Positions 1 through 32,459 of a stretch of DNA of 32,586 nucleotides are shown piece by piece. The stretch spans positions 1 to 32,586 of IMG/VR virus record IMGVR_UViG_3300032397_000047; one strand, written 5' to 3'. The DNA is from a virus. A program made the position numbers and the translations under genes. The stretch's first letter is position 1. Each line of letters begins with the position of its first letter. A model generated the notes under the pieces. The model saw only the letters and a program-made list of their open reading frames with translations. It was not told the origin of the DNA and ran no database searches.

Positions 1-268
1 CCATCTGAGCGATCCGCGCGTCTTCTCGAACACCAAACAGCGTGTTGGGCTCAGCGCGGACGATGCCTACAGGCTGATCGCAGCAATACGCGACCGCGTC
101 TGCCTCCCACGCGAGGTCGTCAGCGCTAGGGCGTCTGCCAGTCCCTGCGATCTTGAACGGTGTTGCCTTGCACAGCGGACACGCGCCATCTACGACCGCG
201 TGATCGGCGCCCACGAAAGGCGTCTTGCACGCAATCCGCTTACCTTCGTAGATCAAAAAGGTCTTCAC
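1..268 (-). CDS. Partial unknown protein with a CxxC motif (C-terminus beyond window)
   Basis: The frame starts with GTG at 268, has a GGAGGT ribosome binding site just upstream, and stays open for 89 codons to the window edge, so the end is missing. It begins MKTFLIYEGKRIACKTPF and contains CPLCKATPF followed by YCCDQP, a spacing that could bind zinc. The start lies only 4 bases after the stop of the upstream gene, so it is the last visible member of a minus-strand operon. I do not recognise the family; a small zinc-ribbon protein is possible, but that is inferred from the cysteines alone. Confidence 0.7.
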   Translation of the reverse strand, partial: MKTFLIYEGKRIACKTPFVGADHAVVDGACPLCKATPFKIAGTGRRPSADDLAWEADAVAYCCDQPVGIVRAEPNTLFGVREDARIAQM

Positions 269-271
269 AGC

Positions 272-538
272 CTACCTCCCCATGTCGTCGCGGTAGGTGT
301 GCTGCAGAAGCTCCGCCTCAAGCCGGAGGACCGCATACTTGGTTGCTGCCAGCTCTTTCCGGGCGCGTTCAAGTGCGACCGACATCTTGTAGCCTTCCGA
401 GTTGGTCCTTCGGCCCGCCTCCTTGCACACCCAGTCGATGCCGTCGTTCACGCCGCGATCATACGCCTCGCTTGGTGGCTCAGCGAACTGCGGGCTGTAC
501 TCAGGCTTAGGGTGTTCGTGTGGTTCTTGGTCGCTCAT
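272..538 (-). CDS. Small unknown phage protein, 88 aa
   Basis: The start is placed at the ATG at 538 because it overlaps the upstream stop codon (ATGA) and has an AGGAG about 9 bases before it; a longer frame reaches 604 but would cover the upstream gene. The protein begins MSDQEPHEHPKPEYSPQFAE, a polar proline-rich head. After it come an acidic stretch (YDRGVNDGIDWVCKEAG) and a probable helix over the last 35 residues. No catalytic motif or membrane segment is seen and I do not recognise it. It is translationally coupled within the minus-strand operon. Confidence 0.7.
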   Translation of the reverse strand: MSDQEPHEHPKPEYSPQFAEPPSEAYDRGVNDGIDWVCKEAGRRTNSEGYKMSVALERARKELAATKYAVLRLEAELLQHTYRDDMGR

Positions 539-777
539 GCGCTCATCTCCTCTGCGAAGTTCTTGGCCTCGCTCACGCTTTTGAAGCCGTCGACGCGGCG
601 CCACGGGCGATCCTTAGCCGGCGCGGCGCAGTGCATGAGCAGGAAGGGCCTGCGCTGTTTGGCGGCGTAGGTGTCGAAGCCTTCCGCGATCCACCACTGC
701 CCGTCGGCGCTGCGGTAGTCGGTGTCGCCGCCCACCTTCTCAGCACGCCACACGAGCGTAGGTTTGCGCTTTCTCAT
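535..777 (-). CDS. Small unknown phage protein, 80 aa
   Basis: The frame begins MRKRKPTLVWRAEKVGG and ends SEAKNFAEEMSA. Its middle (YRSADGQWWIAEGFDTY) suggests a small beta-rich domain of the kind seen in many short phage proteins, followed by a C-terminal helix. Both ends overlap neighbours by ATGA, so its position in a coupled minus-strand operon is clear. I do not recognise a family and propose no function. Confidence 0.7.
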   Translation of the reverse strand: MRKRKPTLVWRAEKVGGDTDYRSADGQWWIAEGFDTYAAKQRRPFLLMHCAAPAKDRPWRRVDGFKSVSEAKNFAEEMSA

Positions 778-1109
778 AGGAGCAGGATCCTCCTGTCGAT
801 CTTGGGAATGGTTTTGGCGTTGCTCTCCAACAGCTGCCTTGTGGTCGCGGCGGGGTGGTAGGTGGGCCTGTCAATGACTTGCCACCTGTGGTGCGCCTTG
901 TCATACCGGATCTTCCGACCATGGCAGAGCTGGTTGAGCGCTTGCTGCAACGGAGGGCCGTGCGTGCGCGCCTTGTTCACGGCTCTGGGAGTAATCGCGC
1001 GACCGGCGAAGAGCGCGAGCCGCTGGACCTCTGTCTGCAGAGCGATAGGCGTGTCGCAGCCTTCAGCGATCAACTGCAAGATGAGCCGCTTGTACTCAGG
1101 CATCTTCAT
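774..1109 (-). CDS. Unknown protein, 111 aa, possible winged-helix fold
   Basis: The start is taken at the ATG at 1109, which overlaps the TGA of the nuclease gene; an upstream in-frame start would extend 14 residues into that gene. The sequence MKMPEYKRLILQLIAEGC, then RAITPRAVNKARTHGPPLQQ and KIRYDKAHHRWQVIDRP, has the rhythm of helix, helix, beta-wing in winged-helix DNA-binding domains. That is an impression from secondary structure, not a family match. The C-terminal 30 residues are basic. It lies directly after the RecB/Cas4-like nuclease and is probably translated with it. Confidence 0.65.
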   Translation of the reverse strand: MKMPEYKRLILQLIAEGCDTPIALQTEVQRLALFAGRAITPRAVNKARTHGPPLQQALNQLCHGRKIRYDKAHHRWQVIDRPTYHPAATTRQLLESNAKTIPKIDRRILLL

Positions 1110-1903
1110 CGAACAAGTTGCCCGCCTACGCACACCGTAGAGGCTCGGCACCCGCGGCAGTGTGGCCCAGGAATCACGTCCGGCTCAATCTTCTCGTGCC
1201 GTAGCTCATCCCTCGTTTCCAGCGTGAGCAGGTGAGCGCGGCGCATCCGTGCCATGTGCGTCTTCAGGTGCTTCTCGGTGTAGATGGTTGGGTGCCAGAT
1301 CAAATCGCCTGTCTTGGCCACGTCAATGATCGCGCCTCGCACCCGCTCCACGTTCTGCATGAGCTGGATGCCGACAGCGAGCGTGAGGAGTTGCGCGTTG
1401 CCTTCAGGCTGCACGCCGTGTTCTGTGCCGCTCTTGTAGTCGCCAACGTTCCACTCCACCGCGGCGCCTTCGTTGCGGTACACGATGTCGGCCGTGCCCA
1501 ATATGTTCTTGTCGGCCTCGGCGAACTCGCGCTCAGACGCCTCTGCGGTGCGTGCTTCCATGTCCACCATGATCTTCATCTCAGGGATCGCGTGCGACGG
1601 GATCTTACTCACGTCGATCCTGCTGCAGACGTTGATCACACCCTTGTTCCGCTTACTCTTCACGTACGCCAGCGCGGCCGTGTGCCCGCGTGTCAGCACG
1701 TATTCGAGGAAGCGATGAATGAAGATGCCATGCCACATGCCAGGGTGCGGCTTCTCGCGCGGCCCGACGTAGACGCGTGCTGCGGGGCAGATTTCGTTGC
1801 GATCGATGTCGTTTGGCGACATGATGTAGTCCTTAGCTCGCAGACCGCTGCCACGGTCGTGCTCCGCCATCAGCTCGTCTTCGCTTTCTTCTGCAGTGCC
1901 CAT
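1106..1903 (-). CDS. PD-(D/E)XK nuclease, RecB/Cas4-like, probable Fe-S cluster
   Basis: A 265-residue protein with the hallmarks of the RecB/Cas4 exonuclease family. An early His lies in GIFIHRFLE (H63), followed by GTADIVYR with Asp139 and GDYKSG with Asp155 and Lys157, which form the metal-binding D...DxK site, then a glutamine-rich helix (QLLTLAVGIQ). One cysteine near the N-terminus (C39, EICPAA) and three near the C-terminus (C249, C252, C258) match the four ligands of the Cas4/AddB-type 4Fe-4S cluster. Such enzymes degrade DNA ends in recombination or replication. The start has GAGG about 6 bases upstream and follows the VWA gene by 2 bases. There is no cas neighbour, so a CRISPR role is not implied. 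Confidence 0.8.
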   Translation of the reverse strand: MGTAEESEDELMAEHDRGSGLRAKDYIMSPNDIDRNEICPAARVYVGPREKPHPGMWHGIFIHRFLEYVLTRGHTAALAYVKSKRNKGVINVCSRIDVSKIPSHAIPEMKIMVDMEARTAEASEREFAEADKNILGTADIVYRNEGAAVEWNVGDYKSGTEHGVQPEGNAQLLTLAVGIQLMQNVERVRGAIIDVAKTGDLIWHPTIYTEKHLKTHMARMRRAHLLTLETRDELRHEKIEPDVIPGPHCRGCRASTVCVGGQLVR

Positions 1904-1905
1904 CG

Positions 1906-3156
1906 CTACCTCGGCTGCATGCCTTGTGCGTTCGTGCGCGGTTTAGGCACGACGATCGACGCGCCCCACGGCACGGCGCCAGGAGCAGCGTATTGGCATT
2001 GTAGGAGCCAGATGACCTGGCACCATGCCGGGCGCACTTTCGGAAAGACTCCGAAGGCGTCCGTGCTGAACACGACCACATCGGGCCGCGGCCGCGCTTT
2101 CGCCAGCGCGTCGAAGACGGGGCGGAAGTCGGTACCGCCTCCGCCTATCATGCTCTTTCGGATCTCGCCTACGCTAGAGACTTGGCGCATGGTGTGCACC
2201 TTCGCATCGCAAGCGATGAACGTGACGCGCCCGCCGGCCGCCCGTAAGATCGGCGCAGCTTGGGCGAGTGTGTACGCCATGTCGGCGTCGCTCACGCTGC
2301 CGCTCGTGTCCTGCACGAGGCAGACGTTGGGAACGGGGGACACGGGTGCAGAGAGGATAGGGCAGCCGGGACCGAACCCGAGCCCGCCTTGCCTGCGGTT
2401 GATCTGGGAGTAGGTGCTGCTCAAGTTGCCCCGCTTCCAGGCCACCGCGCGGCGTGTGAGCACGGCAAGCCGCGCCTCCCAAGGGATCAAAGGTGCACGG
2501 AGCTTCTCCGCGCTGTACCGCTTCAGGGACAGCGGCGCGGTGCCGGCTTGCTGGATCGCGTGAGACACATCGTTCCGCATGCCTTCCAGCTGCGCCGCAC
2601 GCGTCTTGGTGAGGTTGGGGAGCTCGATGTCTTCCTCGCCAGGGAACGGATTGCCGGCGCCGCTCCCGCACGCACCGCGACCTGGCGGCACGGCTTGTGG
2701 CCGCTTTGCGTGGCGCTCTACGCTCTCGTGGTAGTAGTGCTCGGCGGTGAGGCCGTTTGCCTGGCCCAGGCGCGCAGGCAAGATGTCGGAAGCGAGCATC
2801 AGGCACCCCATCGCCTGCAGGTCGTCTGCTAGCTCCGCATCGCAGCAAGCGTTCCACCGCTGGTGGTCGCAGTCGGCGATCAGCTCTGCGCGTTCCGCGT
2901 GGTTGCGATAGATGTGCTCGGCTTCGTGGAGAGTGCCCGTCGCCATGTCGTCCACAGACCACTGGTTGAGGATGACCTCCGGCTCGTAGAGCATCACGCC
3001 GCTGGCGGTGACCGCGGTACCGACACCAGGCGGCAAGAGCCCCGCGGCCGACCAAGGGATCAGCGCGTACACGGCGTCAGAGAAGTACGGGGCGAGGCGG
3101 ATCGCCCGCATGCGGCCTTGCGCCAGCGCTTCCTCTTCGTCGGGCGTGGGCTTCAT
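1906..3156 (-). CDS. VWA-domain protein with metallopeptidase-like N-terminus (DUF2201-like)
   Basis: A 416-residue protein. The N-terminal half has TLHEAEHIYRNHAERA (about 75-90), a HExxH-like metal site in which the second His is one position late (HEAEH), as in the putative metallopeptidase domain of the DUF2201 family. It also has a CGSGAG segment near 163-168. The C-terminal third is a von Willebrand A domain: VQDTSGSVSDADM (DxSGS, about 283-287) and GGGGTDFRP (about 338-346) are the MIDAS metal site. The start at 3156 overlaps the stop of the AAA+ gene. In bacteria such proteins pair with MoxR-type ATPases, as here; the pair is thought to act on protein complexes. The substrate in a phage is unknown. 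Confidence 0.8.
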   Translation of the reverse strand: MKPTPDEEEALAQGRMRAIRLAPYFSDAVYALIPWSAAGLLPPGVGTAVTASGVMLYEPEVILNQWSVDDMATGTLHEAEHIYRNHAERAELIADCDHQRWNACCDAELADDLQAMGCLMLASDILPARLGQANGLTAEHYYHESVERHAKRPQAVPPGRGACGSGAGNPFPGEEDIELPNLTKTRAAQLEGMRNDVSHAIQQAGTAPLSLKRYSAEKLRAPLIPWEARLAVLTRRAVAWKRGNLSSTYSQINRRQGGLGFGPGCPILSAPVSPVPNVCLVQDTSGSVSDADMAYTLAQAAPILRAAGGRVTFIACDAKVHTMRQVSSVGEIRKSMIGGGGTDFRPVFDALAKARPRPDVVVFSTDAFGVFPKVRPAWCQVIWLLQCQYAAPGAVPWGASIVVPKPRTNAQGMQPR

Positions 3157-4346
3157 CCTGCGTACCCTGCCGCCTTCATGGCTGGGTGGAGGGCGGCGAG
3201 AACCTTCTGCCCGACCTTGTGATCGGAAAGGCGCTTGCCGCCGTCGAACGGTTGAGCTCGAGCAACGACGCGCGCAGCCTGCATCGCGAGGTCTACCGCG
3301 CGTGCGTCGACCACTGCGGCGAGGATGCCCCACATGGCGTCGAGACGCGCGGCGCGGTCGGCGCACTTCGGGTCAGCCACGAGCGCGGCGCACGAGTTGA
3401 GCACTGCGCGGGTGATGTCGAGGCGCGTTGGGTCGTGCTCAAACGCAACGTGTCCATCGAGTACGTCTGAGGCAAGCGGCAAATCGAGCGACGCTTCCCA
3501 CTTCAACAGCTCCTCGGCAGCAGACTTGCCCACGAAGGCCTTCAGCATGGTGAGCCTCGCTTCGTCCTTCAGGCTATGCACGCCACACGAAGCGAGCGCG
3601 CACGTGGCTAGGTACCAGGTGCGCCGCGAGGGCCACGCGCGCGACAGCTCGGGGCTGTCCATGCTCGGCTTCTGGTGGAGCTGGCCAGACTTGCCGCCCA
3701 AGAACCCTGTCACGAGGCCACGCGCTGCGGCGAACGGTTCCGCCCACTCCGCCAACACCCGCTGCTCCTCCAGTGCGGCAGAGTGCTGCGGAAGGGAGCT
3801 GCTGGCGGCAGAAGGGCTGCCGTCCAGCGCCATGAGCCACTGAGACCAAGCCTGCACACTGGGCGCGCGCCACTGCACGTGGCCGAGCCGGTTGGCAGTG
3901 CTCGCCGGCAGGTCTGACCCGTCCGCCGCGTCATCGGGCGGGTTGGCAGCGCCCATCACGCGCGTCAGCGCTCCGAGGTACTCGCCGCCGATGCGCTTCG
4001 CCTGGATCAACCCAAGCAAGGCAGGCTTGGCGCTGCCTTGCGCCGTGTTCAGCTCGTCCACGAACACGATGCCGCGCCCATCGTGCTCCTCCAGCTTGAG
4101 AAGCCACTCGGGAGCCGGGTAGGTGATGTAGTGGGTTTTGCCGCGCGCCACAGGCATCGGCGTGACACCGAACGCGCCCTCGCCTCGCTCCCCCGGCGAC
4201 AGGACTTCGACGTGCAGACCGTACGAGTGGCCAACGTCTTCGATGATGTCGCTCTTGGCCACACCAGGTTCGCCCCAGAATAGAAGCGGCAAGCCCCAGC
4301 CTTTGTATGTAGGCGTGAATATCGCCGCCTTGATGATGTCGTGCAT
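3153..4346 (-). CDS. MoxR-type AAA+ ATPase
   Basis: A 397-residue ATPase. The Walker A motif is GEPGVAKS at 25-32, Walker B is GIVFVDELN at about 92-100, and sensor 1 is the Asn in MGAANPP near 135. The block SPGERGEGAFGVTPMP and the sentence WGEPGVAKSDIIEDVG are typical of MoxR/YehL-like ATPases, which remodel partners together with VWA proteins. The downstream gene is such a VWA protein and overlaps by ATGA, so the two are almost surely partners. A GGAG lies about 7 bases before the ATG. The C-terminal 200 residues are helical and specific to this protein. Confidence 0.85.
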   Translation of the reverse strand: MHDIIKAAIFTPTYKGWGLPLLFWGEPGVAKSDIIEDVGHSYGLHVEVLSPGERGEGAFGVTPMPVARGKTHYITYPAPEWLLKLEEHDGRGIVFVDELNTAQGSAKPALLGLIQAKRIGGEYLGALTRVMGAANPPDDAADGSDLPASTANRLGHVQWRAPSVQAWSQWLMALDGSPSAASSSLPQHSAALEEQRVLAEWAEPFAAARGLVTGFLGGKSGQLHQKPSMDSPELSRAWPSRRTWYLATCALASCGVHSLKDEARLTMLKAFVGKSAAEELLKWEASLDLPLASDVLDGHVAFEHDPTRLDITRAVLNSCAALVADPKCADRAARLDAMWGILAAVVDARAVDLAMQAARVVARAQPFDGGKRLSDHKVGQKVLAALHPAMKAAGYAG

Positions 4347-4430
4347 AGATCTCCGTATAGTGGATAGCCTTGTGCGTTGTGCGCGCGTTTCGTGCCTATT
4401 CTTGGTCAGGATCCTTGCGGCTTCCCTAGT

Positions 4431-4715
4431 TCATAACGGCGCCGCCTCTGCAACGGAGATCAGCGTGAGGCGAACAGAGATAGCGCGGACCACTTGATCC
4501 GCTAGCGCTTGCGGCAGCTCGGCGATTTCGTACACGGTCATCTTGCCGAGAATGTCTGCCGGCATGGCCGCGCCAGCGAGTTGCTGCGCGATGTGCGCGC
4601 GCTCGGCGAAGTTGGCGGCACGTTGGTTCACCGTGATCACTGCGGCGACATATGACGCGAACGTACTCAAGGCGATGTGCGAGTGGCCGACTTTCACGTG
4701 CGTGGTGTTTCTCAT
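4431..4715 (-). CDS. Small unknown protein, 94 aa, first gene of the minus-strand operon
   Basis: The frame starts MRNTTHVKVGHSHIALSTFA with GGAG about 10 bases upstream. It continues with AAVITVNQRAANFAERAHIAQQLAG and PADILGKMTVYEIAELPQAL, mainly helical, with no cysteine and no membrane helix. I do not recognise it. It is separated from the AAA+ gene by 84 bases and is the first gene after the 4716-5305 non-coding region, so the promoter for the 1-4715 block should lie just upstream, in the repeated TAGTAAAG elements. A role as an early regulator is possible but unsupported. Confidence 0.65.
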   Translation of the reverse strand: MRNTTHVKVGHSHIALSTFASYVAAVITVNQRAANFAERAHIAQQLAGAAMPADILGKMTVYEIAELPQALADQVVRAISVRLTLISVAEAAPL

Positions 4716-4742
4716 AGACAGGCTCCATATGGGTGTTGGAAA

Positions 4743-4781
4743 TAGTAAAGCATCTTTACTACATAGTAAGGTTTAGTAAAG
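4743..4781. promoter_or_regulatory. Operator-like cluster of TAGTAAAG elements at a probable minus-strand promoter
   Basis: TAGTAAAG (4743-4750) and CTTTACTA (4754-4761) form a perfect 8-bp inverted repeat around CAT. A shorter copy TAGTAAG follows at 4764-4770 and another full copy at 4774-4781. The spacing puts all elements about one helical turn apart, 28-66 bases upstream of the 4715 start codon. On the minus strand TACTAT could serve as a -10 box, with only a weak CTTACT 17 bases before it. This looks like a repressor or activator site controlling the 1-4715 operon; the binding protein is unknown. Confidence 0.5.
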
Positions 4782-4907
4782 AAGACTGACTTGTTACATG
4801 TTTCCGGCTGAGATTTTCCTGTGTGATTACGGGGGCTCATTTGCGGATTTTCGACCATGTGCTAAACACGCGAGGCAAAAGGATCCCCGGTCCGAAAAAC
4901 TTGCAAG

Positions 4908-4946
4908 TCGAGTCGAAGACGAGACGCGTTCGAGTCGAAGACGAGA
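4908..4946. repeat. Direct repeat, two 17-bp copies at 22-bp period
   Basis: TCGAGTCGAAGACGAGA occurs at 4908-4924 and again, identically, at 4930-4946. The copies are two helical turns apart, a spacing that suits a protein binding the same face of the helix. They lie in the non-coding region, about 60 bases before the long hairpin at 5009. Confidence 0.85.
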
Positions 4947-5008
4947 TGCTGAGCAGAGCGAAGCAGTGCGCGATACGGTGCAGTGTTTTAGTTTTATCTC
5001 AATGTTCC

Positions 5009-5054
5009 AACATCAGTTCTTACCGAACGCGGAGCGTTTGAAAGAGCTGATGTT
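5009..5054. other. Long stable hairpin
   Basis: AACATCAGTTCTT (5009-5021) pairs with AAGAGCTGATGTT (5042-5054) over 13 positions with one G-U pair. The inside, CGAACGC (5024-5030) with GCGTTTG (5034-5040), pairs over 7 more with one G-U pair, closing a 3-base loop. A 2x1 internal loop separates the two helices. No U-tract follows on either strand, so it is not a normal terminator. It may be part of a structured RNA or a protein or replication site. Confidence 0.7.
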
Positions 5055-5169
5055 TCCAGGCCGGAGGACTGGCGCGAAACAAAAATGTTCTGAAGCGCGG
5101 CAAGCGCGCGACGGAACGCGCGTCCTATTGTCAAAAAAAATTTCCATTTTTTGGACCAAAGACGACGAA

Positions 5170-5314
5170 AGCGCTCTCACAGGGAGCGCTCATCCTGAAT
5201 GGCGGGTGCGCAGTGCACTTTCGACGTGCGCTTGGAGCCTTCGGCTCAAGCTGCGCCTCAAAGTGCAAGTCCTTGTGAAGGCCTCGGGCTTCGCCCTCAC
5301 GGCCTTCACGGACT
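5170..5314. ncRNA. Chain of three hairpins, candidate structured RNA or 3' trailer
   Basis: Hairpin 1: AGCGCTC (5170-5176) with GAGCGCT (5184-5190). Hairpin 2: TGCACTTT (5214-5221) with AAAGTGCA (5260-5267), enclosing an inner stem built on GAGCC-ttc-GGCTC. Hairpin 3 abuts it: AGTCC and GTGAAGGCC (5268-5283) pair with GGCCTTCAC and GGACT (5301-5314), enclosing GGGC-ttc-GCCC. On the plus strand T-rich sequence follows at 5319-5331, so hairpin 3 could terminate plus-strand RNA. On the minus strand the stop codon of the last gene of the right-hand operon (5306) lies inside hairpin 3. The strand and role are not settled. Confidence 0.55.
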
Positions 5315-5512
5315 GGTGATTTTTGGTTTTTCTTGATCTCGCATAGCGAGCTTCTCCACTGCACCGACTCGCAAGCGCACCAGCACCGCTTCGTCGTGTT
5401 TTACGCGGCACGCTGGCAAGAACTGCCCGGTGAGGTGCACGACTACCTCGACGTCTGCGCTGATCACCAGCCGTTCGTTGTCTTCTGTGACGAACCGGGT
5501 GACGCGTTTCAC
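5306..5512 (-). CDS. Small unknown protein, 68 aa
   Basis: The frame starts with GTG at 5512, overlapping the stop of the preceding tiny gene as GTGA. The sequence MKRVTRFVTEDNERLVISAD, then VEVVVHLTGQFLPACRVKHDEAVLVRLRVG, looks like a small beta-strand-rich domain. I see no strong ribosome binding site of its own, so translational coupling would be needed. The stop codon falls inside a strong hairpin that may end the operon. I do not recognise the family. Confidence 0.5.
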   Translation of the reverse strand: MKRVTRFVTEDNERLVISADVEVVVHLTGQFLPACRVKHDEAVLVRLRVGAVEKLAMRDQEKPKITSP

Positions 5513-5625
5513 GTTTCGGTCCGATCGTTAGCGCGGCGAAGATACGCGTCTGCCGTTGCGCAGTCAGTGCTGCCGCCAATGATGCGGAGCCAGGTGGCAA
5601 GAGCTTGATCGAGATTCCTCTTCAC
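5509..5625 (-). CDS. Tiny unknown protein, 38 aa
   Basis: A GTG-started frame of 38 codons (MKRNLDQALATWLRIIGG then STDCATADAYLRRANDRTET). It overlaps the genes on both sides by 4 bases (GTGA at 5625-5622 and at 5512-5509). An AT-poor sequence with two clean coupled junctions in the same operon argues that it is real despite its size. It is probably one or two amphipathic helices. No function can be given. Confidence 0.5.
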   Translation of the reverse strand: MKRNLDQALATWLRIIGGSTDCATADAYLRRANDRTET

Positions 5626-5738
5626 CGAGCCGCCTGCGCTGCGGTGACGTTTGGGGTGTGCTGCAGGGCGAGGTACTGAGCGGCGCGAGTGATGAGCTTG
5701 TCTTCGACGATCTCGAAGGACGTTCTACGCTTCGGCAT
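5622..5738 (-). CDS. Tiny unknown protein, 38 aa
   Basis: The ATG at 5738 shares its A with the preceding TGA (TGATG), and the frame ends with TGA at 5622-5624, overlapping the next gene as GTGA. The product begins MPKRRTSFEIVEDKLITRA and continues AQYLALQHTPNVTAAQAAR, basic at the start and helical after. The TGATG and GTGA junctions are the support. It could be a small DNA-binding or regulatory peptide, but nothing in the sequence shows that. Confidence 0.5.
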   Translation of the reverse strand: MPKRRTSFEIVEDKLITRAAQYLALQHTPNVTAAQAAR

Positions 5739-5977
5739 CACTTGCGCCCCGTGATTGAGGAGATCTCGTTGCGAATGATGCCGCACACTTCGTTGTCGAA
5801 ACTCGCGAGGAGCGGGATCAGTGCATCGCTTTTGCGGAGCCGATCTTGCATCGCGTAGACAGTCGGTTCGAGCGCGTCACTAGGATCTACTGCGCCGAGG
5901 TCGTGCGCAATGGCGCTGAACGCCTCATAGGCGAGATCGCGAACACGCTTCTCGAAGGCTAAACCACTTTTGCTCAT
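5738..5977 (-). CDS. Small unknown helical protein, 79 aa
   Basis: The start at 5977 has GGAGG about 8 bases upstream and overlaps the stop of the upstream gene (ATGA). The protein begins MSKSGLAFEKRVRDLAYEAF and continues with helices rich in acidic residues (AHDLGAVDPSDALEPTVYAM, then SFDNEVCGIIRNEISSITGRK). A longer frame to 6232 would simply overlap the neighbour and reads as arginine/glycine-rich shadow sequence. No recognised family. Confidence 0.65.
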   Translation of the reverse strand: MSKSGLAFEKRVRDLAYEAFSAIAHDLGAVDPSDALEPTVYAMQDRLRKSDALIPLLASFDNEVCGIIRNEISSITGRK

Positions 5978-6339
5978 CGCGCCTCCTCCGCCGTCAGTTC
6001 GCGCACTGTGCTGCGGATCTGCACACCGTAAACGGTATCGGCCGTGTAGCGCGTGACTCGGTAGTCGATGAAGCCTGTGCCAGGTGCCGCCACGTACTCC
6101 CGCCACACGGTTCCGACGGGGTGCGTTTGCAGGAAGTCCTGAACGGTTGCGTCGTCGACCTCGTCGAACGCCTGCGTGGCCTCGTTGAAGCGGTACCGTT
6201 TGGCGGAATGGATCGTGACCTCCTTCGCGCACATGAGTGCCTGCCCCGCGCCGCTAGGTTCGGCCGGCGCCCCGCAAGTGCAAAGGGTATCGCGGCAGGC
6301 CCAGGGCCAGTACATACAGTTAGGGTTCTTTTCTCGCAT
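5974..6339 (-). CDS. Unknown protein, 121 aa, cysteine-rich N-terminus
   Basis: It begins MREKNPNCMYWPWACRDTLC and has cysteines at 8, 15, 20, 22 and 37 (the last in ALMCAKEV), enough for a small zinc site. The rest (KRYRFNEATQAFDEVDD, then YVAAPGTGFIDYRVTRYTAD and VYGVQIRSTVREL) looks beta-rich. AAGGTG lies about 9 bases before the ATG. The gene starts a tightly coupled run of five genes ending at 5306. The function is unknown. Confidence 0.65.
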   Translation of the reverse strand: MREKNPNCMYWPWACRDTLCTCGAPAEPSGAGQALMCAKEVTIHSAKRYRFNEATQAFDEVDDATVQDFLQTHPVGTVWREYVAAPGTGFIDYRVTRYTADTVYGVQIRSTVRELTAEEAR

Positions 6340-6423
6340 TTTTGATCACCTTTCGGTTTTTGATGGACTCATCAGTGCGCGAGTCACGCGCATAGGCGCC
6401 GGGGCGCCTTTCGTCCTAGATCA

Positions 6424-6972
6424 TCACTCTGCAGCGCGGAGGTGTGCCGCAGCGATAAACAGCCGCGCGCCGTCTCCAGTGGTCACACTGTAGATAGCGT
6501 TCCCGTTCTTCATGTGTGCCTTCTTCACGATGCGCAGGTCGTCCATCTCTTCCGGCTCGATCAGGCCTTCGTACTTCTTTTTCCATGCGTCTGTTACTGC
6601 GACGAGCTGGTTCGCGTTGAACGTCTGGCGCGTGAGCTTCTCGCGGCGTGCACGCGCCCAGCTTGCGTCGAGCAGGCCGATGCTTCCGTTGAGATCGGTT
6701 AGAGCCTTGAGAGCTGCGTTCGCCTCGTCCTCTGCAACGCTGTCGCGCAGGAAGTCGTTCGCCTGTCGCATCTTGCGGATCATGTTGCTGACCCTTCTGA
6801 CCATCAGCGCCTTCTGGCTCTTCTTCGCCGTGCCTTCTACCGCGTCTTCGTCGTCTTCGACCGCTTCGGGCTTCTTGGCGACCGTTAGAATCGCCGCCGT
6901 TCCGGCCGCCCTCGCGGGCACGTTCGCAGGCTTTGTGAAGGTCTTGGGAGCAGTCTTTGCAGTCTTTGCCAT
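6424..6972 (-). CDS. Unknown phage protein, 182 aa, first gene of the second minus-strand operon
   Basis: The start at 6972 is chosen for the GGAG about 10 bases upstream; the frame stays open to 7233, but that part crosses the promoter and repeats. The N-terminal 50 residues are low-complexity (alanine, lysine, threonine, then the acidic VEDDEDAVEG). The rest is mostly helical (VRRVSNMIRKMRQANDFLRD, then EANAALKALTDLNGSIGLLD). A C-terminal part (GNAIYSVTTGDGARLFIAAA) could be beta. A consensus-like promoter at 7046-7074 drives it. The family is not recognised. Confidence 0.7.
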   Translation of the reverse strand: MAKTAKTAPKTFTKPANVPARAAGTAAILTVAKKPEAVEDDEDAVEGTAKKSQKALMVRRVSNMIRKMRQANDFLRDSVAEDEANAALKALTDLNGSIGLLDASWARARREKLTRQTFNANQLVAVTDAWKKKYEGLIEPEEMDDLRIVKKAHMKNGNAIYSVTTGDGARLFIAAAHLRAAE

Positions 6973-7045
6973 GATGTCTTCTCCAGTATCTTTTTGGTGG
7001 GCGAGTAAGTTCGCCCTGCCAACCAACTTCGGTTCCCGTACTCTC

Positions 7046-7072
7046 ATTATGTGCATTATGTGCATTATGTGC
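7046..7072. repeat. Three tandem copies of a 9-bp repeat
   Basis: ATTATGTGC is repeated exactly three times (7046-7054, 7055-7063, 7064-7072). The array supplies the -10 box and nearly all of the -35 box and spacer of the minus-strand promoter. Copy-number change would alter promoter spacing by 9 bases. It may also be an iterated protein-binding site. Confidence 0.9.
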
Positions 7073-7074
7073 AA
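7046..7074 (-). promoter_or_regulatory. Sigma-70-like promoter for the 6972-leftward operon
   Basis: On the minus strand TTGCAC (plus coordinates 7069-7074) and CATAAT (7046-7051) are 17 bases apart, a near-consensus housekeeping promoter. Transcription would start near 7039, leaving a leader of about 65 bases before the ATG at 6972. The promoter is built from three tandem copies of a 9-bp repeat. Confidence 0.65.
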
Positions 7075-7176
7075 TATCTGAATCCGAGAAATCCAGACGG
7101 TGCTGCGTGCTGCGCGTGGCACTGCAGAGGGGAGCACGTACGCACTGCACGCGCTAACGCGCTGTAGGGGCGCACA

Positions 7177-7230
7177 GGGCGCGCTGCGAGGGGGCGCGCT
7201 GCAAGGGGGCGCGCTGCAAGGGGGCGCGCG
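7177..7230. repeat. GC-rich 15-bp tandem repeat, three full copies plus part
   Basis: A 15-bp unit close to GGGGCGCGCTGCAAG repeats from about 7177 to 7220, with a partial fourth copy to 7230. The first copy differs by G for A. A palindrome, CGCACGTGCG, follows at 7229-7238. The array lies in the divergent control region 50 bases before the plus-strand promoter. Confidence 0.85.
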
Positions 7231-7279
7231 CACGTGCGTGCGTGGTAGTTGTGTAGTGGCTGCAGCTCACGCACTATAG

Positions 7280-7308
7280 TTGACATACCGCGTTTTGTGT
7301 GCTATAGC
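7280..7308 (+). promoter_or_regulatory. Sigma-70 promoter for the long plus-strand block
   Basis: A perfect -35 box TTGACA (7280-7285) is followed after 17 bases by TATAGC (7303-7308). Transcription would begin near 7315, 40 bases before the ATG at 7355, whose GGAGG (7344-7348) is well placed. It is the strongest promoter visible in the window and would be read by a host housekeeping RNA polymerase. Confidence 0.8.
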
Positions 7309-7354
7309 GCGCACACCTGTTCCCAACGGGGGAGAACAGACACGGAGGACAGTC

Positions 7355-8233
7355 ATGGCAAAAAATGCCGAAGTCATCGCGGTATCTGAGATGTCGAAAT
7401 CAGCAGGCTTGATCACTTGGTGGAAACTAGGCGGCGAGATAGACCTCGATTCTCTCGGCGCCGCTTGGCGCACGGCGGGGTTGAGCGAAACGACGTTGCC
7501 GCTCCAGAGCAGCCCAACGGTGGCGCTGAGGCGTGCGCTGGAGCGGCTGTTCGTGAAGCCGAACAAAGGCGTAGACCTGCAGCGCATCGCGCCGAAAGGC
7601 CAGTCGCCAGGCGGCTTCGCAGTGATCCGATTCTCGCAGGAGGACTCAGAAGACGCGTTGCAAGATCTCGTTTTCAACACCAAGTTCAAGGTGTGGCTGG
7701 AAGACGGCATCGTGAACGTCGCCTGTAGCGAGAAGTCGAAGGACGAGCTGCGCCGCGCAGTCTGGCAGGCGTTCCAGGAGGAGCAGCAGAAGGTCAACGC
7801 GCACGACCTCAGCGCGTGGCTCGTGCGGCGCGTGGAGGCCGTAGGCGCGGTGCGCTTGCGCGAAGGCGGCGGCGTGTATTTCGTACCGGACACGAAGGTC
7901 CAAGTGTGGCGCGCCATCGCCGGAGCGTTTGAAAGCGTGAGCACGTCTACCATCTACGAGATTCCGGCGATGCGGAGTTCGCGCGCTGTCACTGCCATTC
8001 TCGACGCACTCGTAGCCGAGGCACAGCAAGAGGCAGACCGTATGAACGGTGAGCTAGACCAGGCTGCCCTCGGAGAGCGCGCGATCGCGTCTCGGCAAGA
8101 GGCGTGTAAGGCGCTGCTCGCCAAAGTGGCTGACTATGAGAAGCTCCTCGGCACCAAGATGGAATCCCTGCACAGCATGCTCGGCGTCTTGCAGGCGCGC
8201 TTGATCGAGGCAACGCTGATGGTGGCTGAATGA
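7355..8233 (+). CDS. Unknown phage protein, 292 aa, first gene of the plus-strand block
   Basis: The start is the ATG at 7355, with GGAGG 6 bases before it; an upstream in-frame start at 7280 lies on the -35 box. The protein begins MAKNAEVIAVSEMSKSAGLI. It continues with a mixed domain (WWKLGGEIDLDSLGAAW, FAVIRFSQEDSEDALQ, RLREGGGVYFVPDT) and ends with a coiled-coil-like region from about residue 205 (LDALVAEAQQEADRMNGELD and following). Proteins of this layout occur in actinobacterial and other phages as conserved unknowns. As the first gene behind the best promoter it should be made early and in quantity. No enzymatic motif is seen. Confidence 0.75.
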   Translation: MAKNAEVIAVSEMSKSAGLITWWKLGGEIDLDSLGAAWRTAGLSETTLPLQSSPTVALRRALERLFVKPNKGVDLQRIAPKGQSPGGFAVIRFSQEDSEDALQDLVFNTKFKVWLEDGIVNVACSEKSKDELRRAVWQAFQEEQQKVNAHDLSAWLVRRVEAVGAVRLREGGGVYFVPDTKVQVWRAIAGAFESVSTSTIYEIPAMRSSRAVTAILDALVAEAQQEADRMNGELDQAALGERAIASRQEACKALLAKVADYEKLLGTKMESLHSMLGVLQARLIEATLMVAE

Positions 8234-8781
8234 AACCTGCACACCTAGCGAAGATCACGAGTAATGCTCGGGCGCTGGTGTGCAGGCACAGGCACTTGGC
8301 TTGGCGGCTGTCATTGGGGGATCTTGAACAGGAGGCGCTGCTCGCGCAGGTGGATGCAAGCACGCGCTTTGACGATGCGCGGGGCACACCGTTCGGTGCA
8401 TACACGTGGCGCGCAGCCGTGATCGCGGCCTACAGATACGTTTTGACCGACTCGGCGCCTGTAAGCGGCCGACATGACCCGCAGGTGCTCATAGGGCTGT
8501 ACCGCGAGGAATACGTAGAGGCGCAGCACGAAGGTGGGGGCTCGCAGGAAGACGAGCTCGGGCGCGCCGAGTGGTCGCAGTTGGTTCGGCAGCGTCTCGA
8601 TGCCGTGATAGGCGACGGGGGCGCAGAGTTCGTCACGCAGATGCTCACAGGCGAGTACAAACCGGCAGACGTCGCAGAAGCGCACGGTGTCGAAATTGCG
8701 GAGGTGTACAAGGCCGTTCGAGAGGCTAAGAAGAAGATCTCGGGAGATCCTGAACTGTTCGAGTTGTGGAGGAACATGTGA
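8230..8781 (+). CDS. Sigma-70-like factor (phage RNA polymerase sigma homologue)
   Basis: A 183-residue protein with a region-2-like segment at about 27-71: LSLGDLEQEALLAQ, then FDDARGTPFGAYTWRAAVIA. This matches the pattern of sigma factors, where an acidic DLxQEA helix is followed by FDxxRGxxFxxYxxxxI. A C-terminal helix-turn-helix at about 147-172 (YKPADVAEAHGVEIAEVYKA, then VREAKKKI) resembles region 4. It overlaps its neighbours by ATGA and GTGA. It may redirect host RNA polymerase to phage promoters. A sigma-like helicase loader or plain HTH protein is the alternative. Confidence 0.65.
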   Translation: MKPAHLAKITSNARALVCRHRHLAWRLSLGDLEQEALLAQVDASTRFDDARGTPFGAYTWRAAVIAAYRYVLTDSAPVSGRHDPQVLIGLYREEYVEAQHEGGGSQEDELGRAEWSQLVRQRLDAVIGDGGAEFVTQMLTGEYKPADVAEAHGVEIAEVYKAVREAKKKISGDPELFELWRNM

Positions 8782-9470
8782 CAAAAAAGAAGGCGGCAGA
8801 AGCGGTGACGGCGAGCCTAGCCGCGCAAACGATCCCTATGGGAGACTTGATCCCTACGTACACGAGGGAGACGAACCCAAACAAGATGTCCGACACCGAG
8901 TTCACAGCGCTCACGTCCTTGATCAAGGCTGAAGGGTTCATGCAGTCGATCCTCGTCTCGCCGATCCAAGGGAAGCGGGGCAAGTTCAAGATCGTAGACG
9001 GCCATCACCGCTTCTGGGCGTGCCAGCAGGCGGGCAAAACGGAGATCCTAGCCGTAGTGAAGCCCGCGTCAGAGTCGCTGGCGGCCGCGCTTGGGCTCGG
9101 CCTGAACCGCATCCGCGGTGAGCTCGACCTCAGCCTCTCCGGCCTGGTGATGCAGCACGTGATGGAAGACACGTCGTGGACGGTCGATCAGATGGCGCTG
9201 CTCACAGGCTTTCCGCAGAGCGAGATCGACGCGCTCACTCAGCGGGCGCACAACGACGCAGACGAGATGCTGGAAGAGGTGTCGGCCGCGATGCCTGAGG
9301 ACGAGGCAGATCTGGAAGGGGCCGAGAAGCCGTATGTCCTTGAGATCTCATTCTCGGATAGGGCACTGTACCAACTCGCCCGTCGCAAGCTCCGTAAGGC
9401 TGCTGGAGCGAGTAAAGATCTCGCGAAGGGGCTGCTCGCCGTACTCGGGGAGGATAACGATGGTACGTGA
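8778..9470 (+). CDS. ParB/Srx-fold domain protein
   Basis: GTG at 8778 overlaps the previous stop (GTGA) and has GGAGG 5 bases upstream, so it is preferred over the in-frame GTG at 8766. The N-terminal domain reads IPTYTRETNPNKMSDTEF, then IKAEGFMQSILVSP and FKIVDGHHRFWACQQAGK. The GHHR (75-78) is the ParB/Srx phosphate-contact motif of ParB-like nucleases and CTPases. A middle HTH-like segment (TVDQMALLTGFPQSEIDAL) may bind DNA. In phages such proteins act in regulation, partition or DNA nicking. A second ParB-like gene lies at 31650. Confidence 0.8.
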   Translation: MTKKKAAEAVTASLAAQTIPMGDLIPTYTRETNPNKMSDTEFTALTSLIKAEGFMQSILVSPIQGKRGKFKIVDGHHRFWACQQAGKTEILAVVKPASESLAAALGLGLNRIRGELDLSLSGLVMQHVMEDTSWTVDQMALLTGFPQSEIDALTQRAHNDADEMLEEVSAAMPEDEADLEGAEKPYVLEISFSDRALYQLARRKLRKAAGASKDLAKGLLAVLGEDNDGT

Positions 9471-9756
9471 CAAGAAATCAGTTGACTCTGATGCGCGTGT
9501 CGATCAAGTTGCCTTGATGGTCCGCAACGGCTACCTGCCGGCCGTGGACGTAGCGAACAAGATGGGCGTGTCGCTCACGACAGTCGGGCGTTGGGCAGAC
9601 CAAGAAGTAATCGAGTCTGAGACTGTCGGTCACCGCAGGTTCGTAAAGGTGACATCGTTGATCGCCTACATCGGTGTTACACAGGCGCAGATCTTTGGCT
9701 TCCTCGATACTGGGGCAGTCGGCAAGAAAAAGAAGGCAGCAGGAGAGAAGACATGA
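9460..9756 (+). CDS. Small helix-turn-helix DNA-binding protein (MerR/excisionase-like)
   Basis: The start is the ATG at 9460, inside the end of the ParB-like gene, with GGGGAGG just before it. Residues about 28-62 (YLPAVDVANKMGVSLTTVGR, then WADQEVIESETVGHRRFV) have the pattern of a winged HTH of the MerR/excisionase type, where a tip after the second helix reads xHRR. The C-terminal tail is lysine-rich (GKKKKAAGEK). It probably regulates transcription. There is no integrase nearby, so excision is not suggested. Confidence 0.75.
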   Translation: MVRDKKSVDSDARVDQVALMVRNGYLPAVDVANKMGVSLTTVGRWADQEVIESETVGHRRFVKVTSLIAYIGVTQAQIFGFLDTGAVGKKKKAAGEKT

Positions 9757-10082
9757 GCCACAGCATAAGGATCAACGACGCGGCAAAGGAAGCGGTAGAC
9801 GCAGCGGCTGCCGAGAAAGGCATCTCAGCAAACGAAGCCGCCGAGATGCTGATCGGCGTCGCAGTCACACGCCGCAACGCACTCGCCAAGTACGCGGACA
9901 AGGTGAAGACTGGCGAGAAGCAGCCCAAGTCGCTGAAGAAAAAGAAGGCTGCAGGCAAGAAGAAAGCAGCAGGCAAGAAGAAGGCTGCCAAGGCTGCTAA
10001 GAAGAAGGGCGGCAAGGCTGTCCGGAAGAGCAAGCGCGAGCAGGCAGACGGTGCGCAGGTTGAGGAGTTGTCACTCAACTAA
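9753..10082 (+). CDS. Ribbon-helix-helix-like protein with histone-like lysine/alanine tail
   Basis: A 109-residue protein. The N-terminal 50 residues (SIRINDAAKEAVDAAAAEKG, then ISANEAAEMLIGVAV) fit a ribbon-helix-helix fold: a short strand followed by two helices. Residues about 60-93 are a repeat of KKKAAG units ending in KAAKKKGGKAVRKSKRE, like eukaryotic linker histone tails and some bacterial DNA compaction proteins. It should bind DNA with little sequence specificity through the tail. It overlaps the HTH gene by ATGA. It may compact or mark phage DNA, or act as a repressor. Confidence 0.7.
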   Translation: MSHSIRINDAAKEAVDAAAAEKGISANEAAEMLIGVAVTRRNALAKYADKVKTGEKQPKSLKKKKAAGKKKAAGKKKAAKAAKKKGGKAVRKSKREQADGAQVEELSLN

Positions 10083-10105
10083 GAGCAGCGGGTAGGAAGG
10101 CGTGC

Positions 10106-11560
10106 ATGTTGATCGAGTTAGGAAACCTGCACTGCCATGTTCTTCGCAGCGCTGAGGACGAGCTGAGGTGGCTCGACCGCGTGCTGTCGTTCGAGGACAA
10201 GAGTTTCCAGGCTCGCGTGCACGGCGACGGCCGCATCCACCTGCTGACGTCTGCGGGTTCGTTCCCGGCAGGCCTAGTCGGGGCGGTGCAGCGCCGCGGC
10301 GTGCGTGACGGCCGTAAGGTCGAGGTCGTGGACAAGTGCGTGCGGGGCACTCCGCCCGAGCTGCGGCCGGACGTAGGGTGGCTCCGCTCACACCAGCTCG
10401 AAGCTCTTGCGGTAGCTCGCCGGTACTCACGCGGCGTCTTCCATCACCCGACGGGCGCTGGAAAAACGGAAGTCATGGTCGGCTTAGGGGAGCAGAACCC
10501 CGGCTCGTGGTTGATTCTCGTTCATACGAAGATCCTCATGGACGAAATCCGCAATCGGTTTCTCAAGCGCACTGGCGAGGCGCTGGGGATGCTGGGCGAC
10601 GGGCATCGCGTTCTGAACAAGCGCATCACGGTGGCCATGTTCCAGACGGTCTACAAAGCGATCGTTGCGACGCCGCGCGACCCAGCGATCGTGGAGTTTC
10701 TCAAGCGCCAGCAAGGTATGATGGTCGACGAGGTGCACGTCGTCCCAGCCTCGACGTTCTGGAAGGTCACGCACGCGCTGCCCAACGCTTACTACCGGTA
10801 CGGGTTCTCAGGCACACCGTTCGCGCGGTCAGACTCCAAATCGATCTACGTCATCGCAGCGATCGGACCCACGATTCACAGGGTCACGGCCACGGAGCTG
10901 ATCGACAAAGGGCTACTCGCGAAGCCCAACATCCGGCTTGTGCCCGTGCAACACAAGCCGCCGGCGAGCACGAAGGGATCGCCAACTTGGCAGGCCGTCT
11001 ACAAGTCGGCCGTCGTGTGCAACGACGCACGCAACGCCACCTTGACGCAGATCGCGACCATCGCCGACAAGCCTACGCTCTTGTTCGTAAAGGCGCTGGA
11101 GCACGGCAGGATCCTAGAGAAGTTGATCCGCGCGCGCGGCTTGCGTGTGGAGTTCGTGTGGGGGGAGCACATCACACCGCAGCGCTGGGCAGCGATTCGC
11201 AGATTGGTGCACGGTGACGTGGACGTTCTTATCTGTAATGTGATCTTCCAAGTCGGTGTGGACATCCCGGAGCTACAGTCCGTGATCATCGGAAGTGGTG
11301 GCAAATCGGCGATCATGGTGCTACAAAACACAGGTAGAGGTACGAGGCGCCACGCGCACGACGGAACGGTGACCAAGGATGAGTTTTCAGTTTACGACAT
11401 ACAAGATCGCGGATGCGGCTGTAGAGGCAGGCACGCGGCATGTCGTTGGCTGGAGAAGCACACGAAGGAACGCCTCGCCGCATACGCCATGGAGCAATAT
11501 TCGGTGTTCATCACACGGTTATCGGAGGAGCAGAGAGGAGTGCGTCATGAGAGTCACTGA
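10106..11560 (+). CDS. SF2 DNA/RNA helicase (UvsW-like DEAD/DEAH family)
   Basis: A 484-residue superfamily 2 helicase. Motif I is HHPTGAGKT (about 113-121), motif II is DEVH (208-211), and motif III is SGTPFAR (about 235-241). Motif V lies in NVIFQVGVDIPEL and motif VI in LQNTGRGTRR (about 410-419). The first 90 residues form a separate N-terminal domain, as in T4 UvsW, which unwinds branched DNA and R-loops during recombination-dependent replication. A cysteine/arginine-rich patch (DRGCGCRGRHAACR) follows the helicase core. It heads the replication section of the plus-strand block. Confidence 0.9.
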   Translation: MLIELGNLHCHVLRSAEDELRWLDRVLSFEDKSFQARVHGDGRIHLLTSAGSFPAGLVGAVQRRGVRDGRKVEVVDKCVRGTPPELRPDVGWLRSHQLEALAVARRYSRGVFHHPTGAGKTEVMVGLGEQNPGSWLILVHTKILMDEIRNRFLKRTGEALGMLGDGHRVLNKRITVAMFQTVYKAIVATPRDPAIVEFLKRQQGMMVDEVHVVPASTFWKVTHALPNAYYRYGFSGTPFARSDSKSIYVIAAIGPTIHRVTATELIDKGLLAKPNIRLVPVQHKPPASTKGSPTWQAVYKSAVVCNDARNATLTQIATIADKPTLLFVKALEHGRILEKLIRARGLRVEFVWGEHITPQRWAAIRRLVHGDVDVLICNVIFQVGVDIPELQSVIIGSGGKSAIMVLQNTGRGTRRHAHDGTVTKDEFSVYDIQDRGCGCRGRHAACRWLEKHTKERLAAYAMEQYSVFITRLSEEQRGVRHESH

Positions 11561-11741
11561 GCAAGAGATCGAGAGCATGAAGCGCAAGTTGTGCGAACAG
11601 CTTGGCAGTGACGTAGAGCCCGCCGTCGTGGCGGACTTTGCGACGCGCGCCCTCGCGCGCATTCTCGGTGACTACCAAGCGTTGCGGCGTGAGAATGCCA
11701 AGCTGCGCCTCAGGCGCGCTAGCGAACTTCGCTGTGCCTGA
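11547..11741 (+). CDS. Small unknown protein, 64 aa, coiled-coil-like
   Basis: ATG at 11547 overlaps the helicase stop by 14 bases and has AGAGGAG just upstream. The protein begins MRVTEQEIESMKRKLCEQLG and ends with a charged helix (YQALRRENAKLRLRRASELR), a heptad-like pattern. I do not recognise it. It may be a helicase-associated small factor, which is only inferred from the overlap. Confidence 0.65.
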   Translation: MRVTEQEIESMKRKLCEQLGSDVEPAVVADFATRALARILGDYQALRRENAKLRLRRASELRCA

Positions 11742-11768
11742 CGAGCGGTTCTAAAGCGCGCCATACCG

Positions 11769-11801
11769 CGTAAGGCTATCCCTGACGAAAGGGGCTTTAC
11801 G
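11769..11801 (+). promoter_or_regulatory. Hairpin holding the ribosome binding site of the next gene
   Basis: CGTAAGGC (11769-11776) pairs with GCTTTACG (11794-11801) with one G-U pair. CCC (11780-11782) pairs with GGG (11791-11793) across an 8-base loop. AGGGG, the only plausible Shine-Dalgarno sequence for the ATG at 11803, is inside the stem, so translation may depend on opening it. It could also be a weak terminator, but no U-tract follows. Confidence 0.5.
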
Positions 11802-11802
11802 G

Positions 11803-12501
11803 ATGGGCGCAGAACTGCGCGGCGCGGCGCACAACGACTGGACACGGATACTGTTGGAGTACGGTACGGAGATCCCTCACTACCCTGGTGTGGAGGTGAT
11901 CAAGCCTGCGCGCATCCCGCCACCGCCACTGCTCACTGGCGACGACCCAGAGCAGTGGTCGCTTCAGCTTCTTCGGGCCTATACCGCAGTGGTGGCGCGA
12001 GCACCTCGGGTGGTGCGCCTCACCGACTTGCAAGAGCTGCCTGACAGAAAGCAGCGGCTGCTCTTGCAGGCGGGCGAGTGGCTAGAGGCGCGGCAGACGC
12101 AGCCTGTGCCCTGGTGCAGGTTCGCGCTGGTCTCGTGGCGTCGGTACGGCCCTGCGCAATTGCGCGCTTGGGCGCCGTCGCTTCAGTGGGTGTACGGGCA
12201 AGCGCGGTTGACGAAGGCCGACTTGTGGTACTCGTGGGACGGGGCCACAACAGGTGGTGTGCGTCTCGTGTTTTCCAAGAGCCATAAGGCCTTGATCCGG
12301 CGGTACGACAGGATGCGCCTCGCGCTTCTCGCCGAGGCCAGGTGTAAGGACTTGACCTATGAAACGGTCCGGCACATCGTGTCCGCGACGTTGCCTAAGG
12401 GGTGGTACAGGCAGGCAGTCAGCGCAGCACAGTTAGAGTCAGAGATAGCGCAGGCGGAGATCAACGCCGGCCTGCGGCGGGGGACGGATCTTTGGGGTTG
12501 A
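11803..12501 (+). CDS. Unknown phage protein, 232 aa
   Basis: It begins MGAELRGAAHNDWTRILLEY and is rich in Trp, Arg and Leu (LQLLRAYTAVVARAPRVVRL, WCRFALVSWRRYGPAQLRAW, KALIRRYDRMRLALLAEARC). The composition is that of a globular, mainly helical protein; there is no cysteine cluster, Walker motif or signal peptide. It sits between the SF2 helicase and the replicative helicase, so a role in replication (for example a loader) is possible. No motif supports that. The frame is uninterrupted and follows the local reading direction. Confidence 0.65.
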   Translation: MGAELRGAAHNDWTRILLEYGTEIPHYPGVEVIKPARIPPPPLLTGDDPEQWSLQLLRAYTAVVARAPRVVRLTDLQELPDRKQRLLLQAGEWLEARQTQPVPWCRFALVSWRRYGPAQLRAWAPSLQWVYGQARLTKADLWYSWDGATTGGVRLVFSKSHKALIRRYDRMRLALLAEARCKDLTYETVRHIVSATLPKGWYRQAVSAAQLESEIAQAEINAGLRRGTDLWG

Positions 12502-26443: not shown

Positions 26444-27142
26444 ATGGGGAAGACTTACGCACTCGCAGAGTGCTTCGAGACGATCCAAGGGGAAGGATCG
26501 TGGGCAGGCACTCCTGCGCTGTTCATCAGGCTGGCAGGTTGTAACCTGTGGAGCGGTCGTGCTGAAGACCGGCAGCGCGATGCGAAGCGCAATCAAGCTC
26601 AGTGCCCGCTGTTCTGCGACACCGACTTCGTGCCCCGCCTGAAAATGTCTGCCGACGAGATCGTGGCGGTAGTTTCCGCGTATGCAGAAAAAGGCGGGCG
26701 GCTAGCTGTGATCACAGGCGGCGAGCCGCTGCTTCAGCTGGACCACGACATCGCTTCAAAGATGCTGGATTTCCTGCAAGTCGCGATCGAGACGAATGGC
26801 ACAGTCGCGATGGGCCCCGAGCTGGCGCAGCTTACGGCGCGCCAGCTCGATCATGCGCGGTTGTGGATCACGTGCTCGCCGAAGCATGCTGCAGACAAGC
26901 TCCTGCTTGATCCGCACGCTGTGAGCGAGCTGAAGGTGGTATACCCGAACTACGATCCCCTTCAGTACGCGGCGTGGGTGCGCCCCGGCACCAAGCTCTA
27001 CGTGCAGCCTGCAGCGTCGCAGTGCGGAGTCGGCGTCTCGGTGTTGGACAAGGTGAACATGACGAACGCAGCCCAGTGGTGCATGGAGCACCCTGCGTGG
27101 TCACTATCCGTGCAAACTCACCGCGTGCTGGGTCTTCCATGA
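26444..27142 (+). CDS. queE: 7-carboxy-7-deazaguanine synthase (QueE), radical SAM
   Basis: A 232-residue protein with GAAGGAGG upstream. It begins [20 protein letters not shown], then [14 protein letters not shown], and [19 protein letters not shown] and AIETNGT, in the order of QueE. It converts carboxy-tetrahydropterin to 7-carboxy-7-deazaguanine (CDG). The Fe-S cysteines are C33, C54 and C58, a C-x20-C-x3-C spacing, whereas QueE relatives of this type show C-x14-C-x2-C. FolE follows with an ATGA overlap. Confidence 0.9.
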
Positions 27143-32387: not shown

Positions 32388-32416
32388 GGGCGCTAAACAG
32401 AAGCATCCCGCACAAG

Positions 32417-32443
32417 GCTTACGCTGAGAAGCGTAGGCTTTTT
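32417..32443 (+). terminator. Intrinsic terminator at the end of the plus-strand block
   Basis: GCTTACGC (32417-32424) pairs with GCGTAGGC (32431-32438) with one G-U pair, a 6-base loop, then TTTTT (32439-32443). It follows the last gene by 30 bases and precedes the next gene's GGAGG. It should end transcription from the 7280 promoter. Confidence 0.8.
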
Positions 32444-32459
32444 ACGTTGGAGGAATCGA

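Follow-up and report, generated by a model that had tools for sequence, protein, structure and literature searches.

In phage ICP1, an RNA of about 800 nt is made from a gap that holds no open reading frame (ORF), as reported in PMC7567579, and lnc001 of phage K, at 13595–14229, amounts to 635 nt by its coordinates (PMC9241854). The GOLLD and ROOL RNAs are described as lying frequently, although not strictly, near tRNA islands, and as being of unknown function (PMC12286853). Another use of hairpins is made by the virion RNA polymerase of phage N4, which according to PMC4496689 recognizes the tips of hairpins with a GNA triloop; the promoters described there start at a C, which as position +1 lies 11 nt away from the middle of the loop, with an A-tract between the two. 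The N4 heptamer can be written as GCGRAGC (a 3-nt loop on a stem of 5–7 bp), with letters that we deduced mainly from the contacts in that paper.

The locus treated here lies in a window of 32,586 bases, i.e., the whole linear virus record that was analysed, which belongs to a taxonomically unclassified phage. Like GOLLD, ROOL, the ICP1 RNA and lnc001, it combines an ORF-less phage gap, here of 590 bp, with dense predicted structure, but it differs from these RNAs in that no covariance model matches it, the window is without tRNA, and closure of the structure into a domain is at chance level. It resembles the intrinsic (rho-independent) terminators and 3′-protecting hairpins of operon ends in its GC-rich stems and its site directly past a last stop codon, and a pair of U-rich minus-strand tails recalls such terminators. 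Unlike these systems, it consists of several long hairpins spread across 240 nt, its tails fall below consensus, and one hairpin lies past the presumed end. Reminiscent of the N4 early promoters are 3-nt GNA loops, within GCGGAGC on the plus strand of hairpin 1 and GCGAAGC on the minus strand of hairpin 4. The reading that we prefer, with a probability of roughly 40 %, is that transcripts of the minus-strand operon to the right may have their 3′ ends in the hairpin cluster, which would act as a terminator zone.

The gap between two minus-strand operons

Two gene groups, both running leftward (minus strand), occupy the left end of the window. The first gene of the left-hand operon, recognized by its codon score, lies at 4431–4715 (minus strand, 94 aa); it is followed by a MoxR-type ATPase (3153–4346, minus strand) and a VWA/DUF2201 protein, both assigned by family searches in PHROGs and Pfam. 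A PD-(D/E)XK exonuclease also belongs to this group. The ATPase and the VWA/DUF2201 protein adjoin each other (1906–4346). Distant matches to the VWA protein occur in Pseudomonas phages (23–24 % over 91 %), one of which, PA15, is a Schitoviridae record where the protein is annotated as N4 gp25-like.

The right-hand operon is a series of small minus-strand genes at 6424–6972, 5974–6339, 5738–5977, 5622–5738, 5509–5625 and 5306–5512, most of which overlap their neighbours by a few bases. Searches of family libraries, which covered the five genes other than 5509–5625, gave no known relatives. The 38-aa gene at 5509–5625 (minus strand) has a stop codon that overlaps the start of the following gene, to which it is likely to be translationally coupled. 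This following gene (5306–5512, minus strand) is the last of the operon. It encodes 68 aa from a GTG start, ends with a TGA at 5308–5306 and has the codon usage of a gene (a score of +0.19 bits per codon), with 0 homologues in PHROGs, Pfam and NCBIfam.

What separates the two operons is a gap at 4716–5305, delimited by codon scores and a gap list and attributed to no strand. In the gene set used, these 590 bp form the longest intergenic gap, and the ORFs listed there score negative on codon use. The GC content is 0.51, compared with about 0.6 around the gap. A protein hidden in the hairpins was considered and rejected, as the ORFs at 4798–5319 (plus strand), 5131–5364 and 5190–5600 (both minus strand) all score non-coding; no Pfam family was found for 4798–5319 and no PHROGs family for 5190–5600. 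At 4908–4949, TCGAGTCGAAGACGAGAYGC is present in two near-identical copies with a spacing of 22 nt, an arrangement that looks iteron-like.

Upstream of the left-hand operon, at 4743–4780, the motif TTTACTA / TAGTAAA, assigned to no strand, occurs three times where 0.31 copies are expected. None of 100 shuffles reaches three copies; a near copy is present as well, and the copies stand in direct and inverted order. This cluster is likely to be an operator. Since the left-hand operon has operator-like repeats of its own, a boundary between the two operons is to be expected.

Farther to the right, a plus-strand replication module begins at about 7355 and encodes a helicase, a DnaB-like helicase, a primase, a DNA polymerase of 1142 aa, a UvsX-like recombinase and an SbcC-like protein. 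A good sigma-70-like promoter, TTGACA-N17-TATAGC, can be read at 7280–7308 before the plus-strand operon. Between the divergent operons there are 9-nt repeats, CATTATGTG, and a GC-rich unit in three copies 15 nt apart (7045–7080 and 7177–7229). The protein encoded at 8230–8781 has weak similarity to sigma-70 region 2 (22.0 bits, with a Pfam cut-off of 24) and is possibly a phage sigma factor.

The hairpins and their stability

An earlier note on this DNA had proposed four hairpins in non-coding sequence, and all four are present where it placed them; every one also folds on the minus strand. Hairpin 1 (5009–5054, either strand) is indeed a two-part structure of 20 bp, with 13 + 7 pairs on the plus strand, 18 of them Watson-Crick and two G-U (5017–5046 and 5025–5039), and a plus-strand GGA loop. 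Its folding energy is −24.7 kcal/mol on the plus strand (z −5.9) and −19.0 kcal/mol on the minus strand (z −3.6). Hairpin 2 (5170–5190, either strand) has nine plus-strand pairs, one of them G-U, and is followed on the minus strand by TTCGTCGTCTTT. At −14.2 kcal/mol on plus and −14.6 kcal/mol on minus, with z values of −2.6 and −1.5, respectively, it is ordinary when taken alone. Hairpins 3 (5214–5267) and 4 (5268–5314), again possible on either strand, are adjacent, and both are capped by a triloop that reads UUC in plus-strand RNA, which agrees with their description as back to back on ttc loops, and GAA on the minus strand. The former comprises about 23 pairs with bulges (−29.9 kcal/mol on plus, −28.9 on minus, z −4.8 on both strands) and the latter 18 pairs (−28.9 kcal/mol and z −4.3 on plus, −30.4 kcal/mol and z −5.6 on minus). 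The last gene of the right-hand operon does end inside this final hairpin, with its TGA at 5308–5306. A further hairpin that had escaped the earlier note, hairpin 1c (5087–5117, either strand), is followed on the minus strand by ATTTTTGTTT (5086–5077).

When compared with shuffled controls, 4985–5330 folds at z −4.9 on the plus and −5.1 on the minus strand, and none of 100 shuffles is equally stable. Across the record, 72 sampled windows of 346 nt have a mean z of about −0.3, and a single one of them reaches z ≤ −4.5 on either strand. This one, 5150–5495, is the most structured of the sample and overlaps the hairpin region. From the shuffle controls together with this sample it follows that base composition does not account for the structure. 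Singly and by raw energy, the hairpins are strong yet not unique: among 56-nt stretches, 5265–5320 ranks about 12th in the window, after GC-rich and partly coding stretches. Nor are perfect palindromes enriched window-wide (5 compared with 4.5 expected). The claim that this is non-coding structure beyond the needs of a terminator is borne out, in that the structure is real, lies outside coding sequence and exceeds one simple terminator.

The GNA loops recall N4-type hairpin promoters, a candidate that was rejected because the start-site features disagree and the hairpins are not repeated before early genes. Heptamers of the GCGRAGC type number 39 window-wide; that of hairpin 1 on the plus strand sits on a perfect 5-bp stem and that of hairpin 4 on the minus strand on 4 bp. 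Unlike the N4 promoters, hairpin 1 has a T at +1 and ACCG in place of AAAA, whereas hairpin 4 lacks the A-tract though it has a C at +1, and its tip stem is just 4 bp long. In a further departure from the N4 early promoters, GNA hairpins do not recur ahead of other operons here: of the five with a stem length of at least 5, the three outside the gap fall in coding sequence of the plus-strand operon.

The hairpins could instead act as DNA, in a cis-acting element such as a replication start, a single-strand priming site or a set of extruded hairpins bound by a protein, and the GNA triloops, the repeat at 4908–4949 and A+T-rich patches would then assist them. We consider this improbable. It would suit such an element that the structure of 4985–5330 is equal on both strands, that three hairpins end in triloops of the GNA type (hairpin 1 with GGA on the plus strand, hairpins 3 and 4 with GAA on the minus strand), that a direct repeat occurs at a spacing of 22 nt, and that the gap is lower in GC than its surroundings. 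However, the repeat array stops at two copies, GNA hairpins with a stem length of at least 5 number five in the window where 2.6 are expected, and the change in GC skew near 4000 is weak.

Strand cues and a possible plus-strand RNA

The gap as a whole (4716–5340) folds better on the plus than on the minus strand (z −5.9 vs −2.7), as does its left part, 4716–4990 (z −2.7 vs +0.4). Moreover, the arms of hairpins 1–3 contain four positions that are not Watson-Crick, and every one of them is G-U when read on plus and A-C when read on minus, a 4:0 count that is small and comes from hairpins that had been chosen with G-T allowed on the plus strand. A symmetric search for pairs gave plus-strand G-U to A-C ratios of 2:1 in hairpin 1 and 1:0 in hairpin 3. 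For nine gap hairpins taken at a low threshold, among which hairpins 2 and 4 are not listed as such, the symmetric G-T to A-C count is 28 to 16; this set is too permissive, so that the strand is not decided by it. Taken as hints, the G-U pairs point to a plus-strand RNA.

Such an RNA would be a long non-coding RNA (lncRNA) of some 330–600 nt that fills the gap, converges with the right-hand operon, has the hairpins as its arms and belongs to a sequence class of its own. It would have precedents in ICP1 and K, where ORF-less gaps of similar size yield abundant RNAs according to the two reports cited above. It is the main rival of the preferred reading; we consider it somewhat less probable than that, with a fair chance nonetheless, and several findings speak against it. 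A loose promoter scan gave nothing convincing on the plus strand of the gap, and when the hairpins were scored on both strands their plus-strand tails reached −0.9 at best, i.e., a U-rich tail is absent there. In addition, the main hairpins are similarly strong on the minus strand. Rfam yielded 0 matches at gathering score window-wide and nothing relevant at E ≤ 5 in 4650–5420; matches to sX5 (15.9 bits, with a gathering score of 50) and mir-H11 are sub-threshold and were taken as chance. No tRNA or tmRNA was found, with 0 tRNAs in the window, which is a fragment.

The predicted plus-strand fold contains a helix, 5154–5166/5316–5328, that encloses hairpins 2, 3 and 4 with closing pair probabilities of 0.7–1.0. 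A closed multi-branch domain of this kind was rejected, as the linker duplex is matched in 626 of 2000 shuffles in which the hairpins were kept and the linkers shuffled, and linker-shuffled versions fold as stably in 89 of 150 cases. This chance-level closing helix also counts against the plus-strand lncRNA. If everything in 4716–5345 except the four hairpins is shuffled, equal stability is reached in 2/40 cases on plus and 35/40 on minus. Structure beyond the hairpins is marginal, with at most a weak plus-strand surplus. These shuffles argue for a row of separate hairpins, in which nearly all of the excess structure resides. The earlier note's idea of a structured RNA is thus partly supported: the non-coding structure is real, but for a single structured RNA the closing helix is at chance, Rfam gives no match and the strand cues conflict, with G-U pairs in favour of plus and U-rich tails in favour of minus. 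That the arms form one particle or a protein-binding scaffold during infection, within a plus-strand lncRNA outside the Rfam classes in a large, replication-rich phage, we regard as unlikely. A plus-strand RNA, if true, would add a phage lncRNA outside the few classes described.

On the minus strand, the tail 3′ of hairpin 1c, AUUUUUGUUU (5077–5086), is U-rich and scores −2.73, and TTCGTCGTCTTT after hairpin 2 scores −2.19. Scores as good as these are found at 2.6 % and 6.2 %, respectively, of minus-strand positions in the A+T-richer gap. Given this background and the 12 tests of hairpin and strand, the U-tails are suggestive only and may have arisen by chance. For a minus-strand transcript spanning 5345 to 5075, the probability that hairpin 1c forms is 0.92; in shorter RNAs the value is 0.48, 0.02 or 0.62, varying with the 5′ end. 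Together with its tail it is a weak terminator candidate for the minus strand, and a scan of 1–12000 for consensus terminators found none at these hairpins on that strand.

The proposed operon end and the search for relatives

What is observed, namely how the genes are ordered, where the last stop codon lies and which hairpins and tails follow it, fits best with a 3′ end of the right-hand operon. Polymerase would enter from the right and cross the overlapping small genes from 6972 down to 5306. Right past the last stop codon it would transcribe hairpin 4 and then hairpin 3, followed by hairpins 2 and 1c, whose U-rich tails would halt it at about 5160 and 5078. Hairpins 4 and 3, both large and lying ahead of these, would guard the 3′ end of the RNA against exonucleases, and the left-hand operon would begin anew at its own operator and a promoter near 4743–4780. 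Transcription along this course, its termination, the protection of the 3′ end and the left-hand promoter are all proposed from the sequence. Several findings count against the operon-end reading: hairpin 1 is situated past the proposed stop point, the arm positions of hairpins 1–3 that are not Watson-Crick can pair as G-U in a plus-strand RNA but are A-C in a minus-strand one, the opposite of what it would lead one to expect, and there is more structure than termination needs. If the cluster does mark an operon end, it would represent ordinary phage regulation with an unusually heavy 3′-end structure.

No relative carrying the hairpin region was found in phages, plasmids or IMG/VR. The phage collection gave no DNA match to 3000–7300 or to 4716–5340 and no match to gene 4431–4715, the plasmids no DNA match to 4716–5340, and a 24-base piece of hairpin 3 is present in 0 other IMG/VR contigs. 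When IMG/VR was scanned with one protein at a time, neither the MoxR ATPase nor the VWA protein nor an ORF at 4426–4728, out of frame with gene 4431–4715, yielded a relative, and two scans of genome contigs with neighbouring proteins gave none either. A covariance model of 5154–5328, run against 92 sources and 44 whole records, matched the window alone, which also speaks against the plus-strand lncRNA; its one extra match is hairpin 3 on the opposite strand of the window. Alignment-based scans returned distant kin at 21–32 % identity among the matches listed. The nearest of these listed matches in gene content, IMGVR_UViG_3300030329_003373, has the ATPase, the VWA protein, DUF6744 and, weakly, the polymerase in common with the window, and nothing in it aligns convincingly with the gap.

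That the searches yielded no relative, family or conserved partner would also be consistent with a relic or a coincidence, i.e., decayed sequence or a captured cluster of palindromes with no present function. This is distinctly unlikely, however: phages retain little idle DNA, and none of the 72 windows sampled exceeds this region in structure.

The scan with the DNA polymerase also retrieved a 20,080-base metagenome record (L007) whose sequence agrees with the window without any difference across the polymerase gene and across 29000–32586. It covers the window from about 15,790 rightwards only, starting about 10 kb from the gap, and adds 3,324 bases beyond the right end of the window, in which there is what we take to be a ThyX-like gene. 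Within the right part of the window, a radical-SAM protein and a queuine tRNA-ribosyltransferase-like protein are encoded at 26444–27142 and 30674–31666, a pair that hints at 7-deazaguanine modification of DNA or tRNA.
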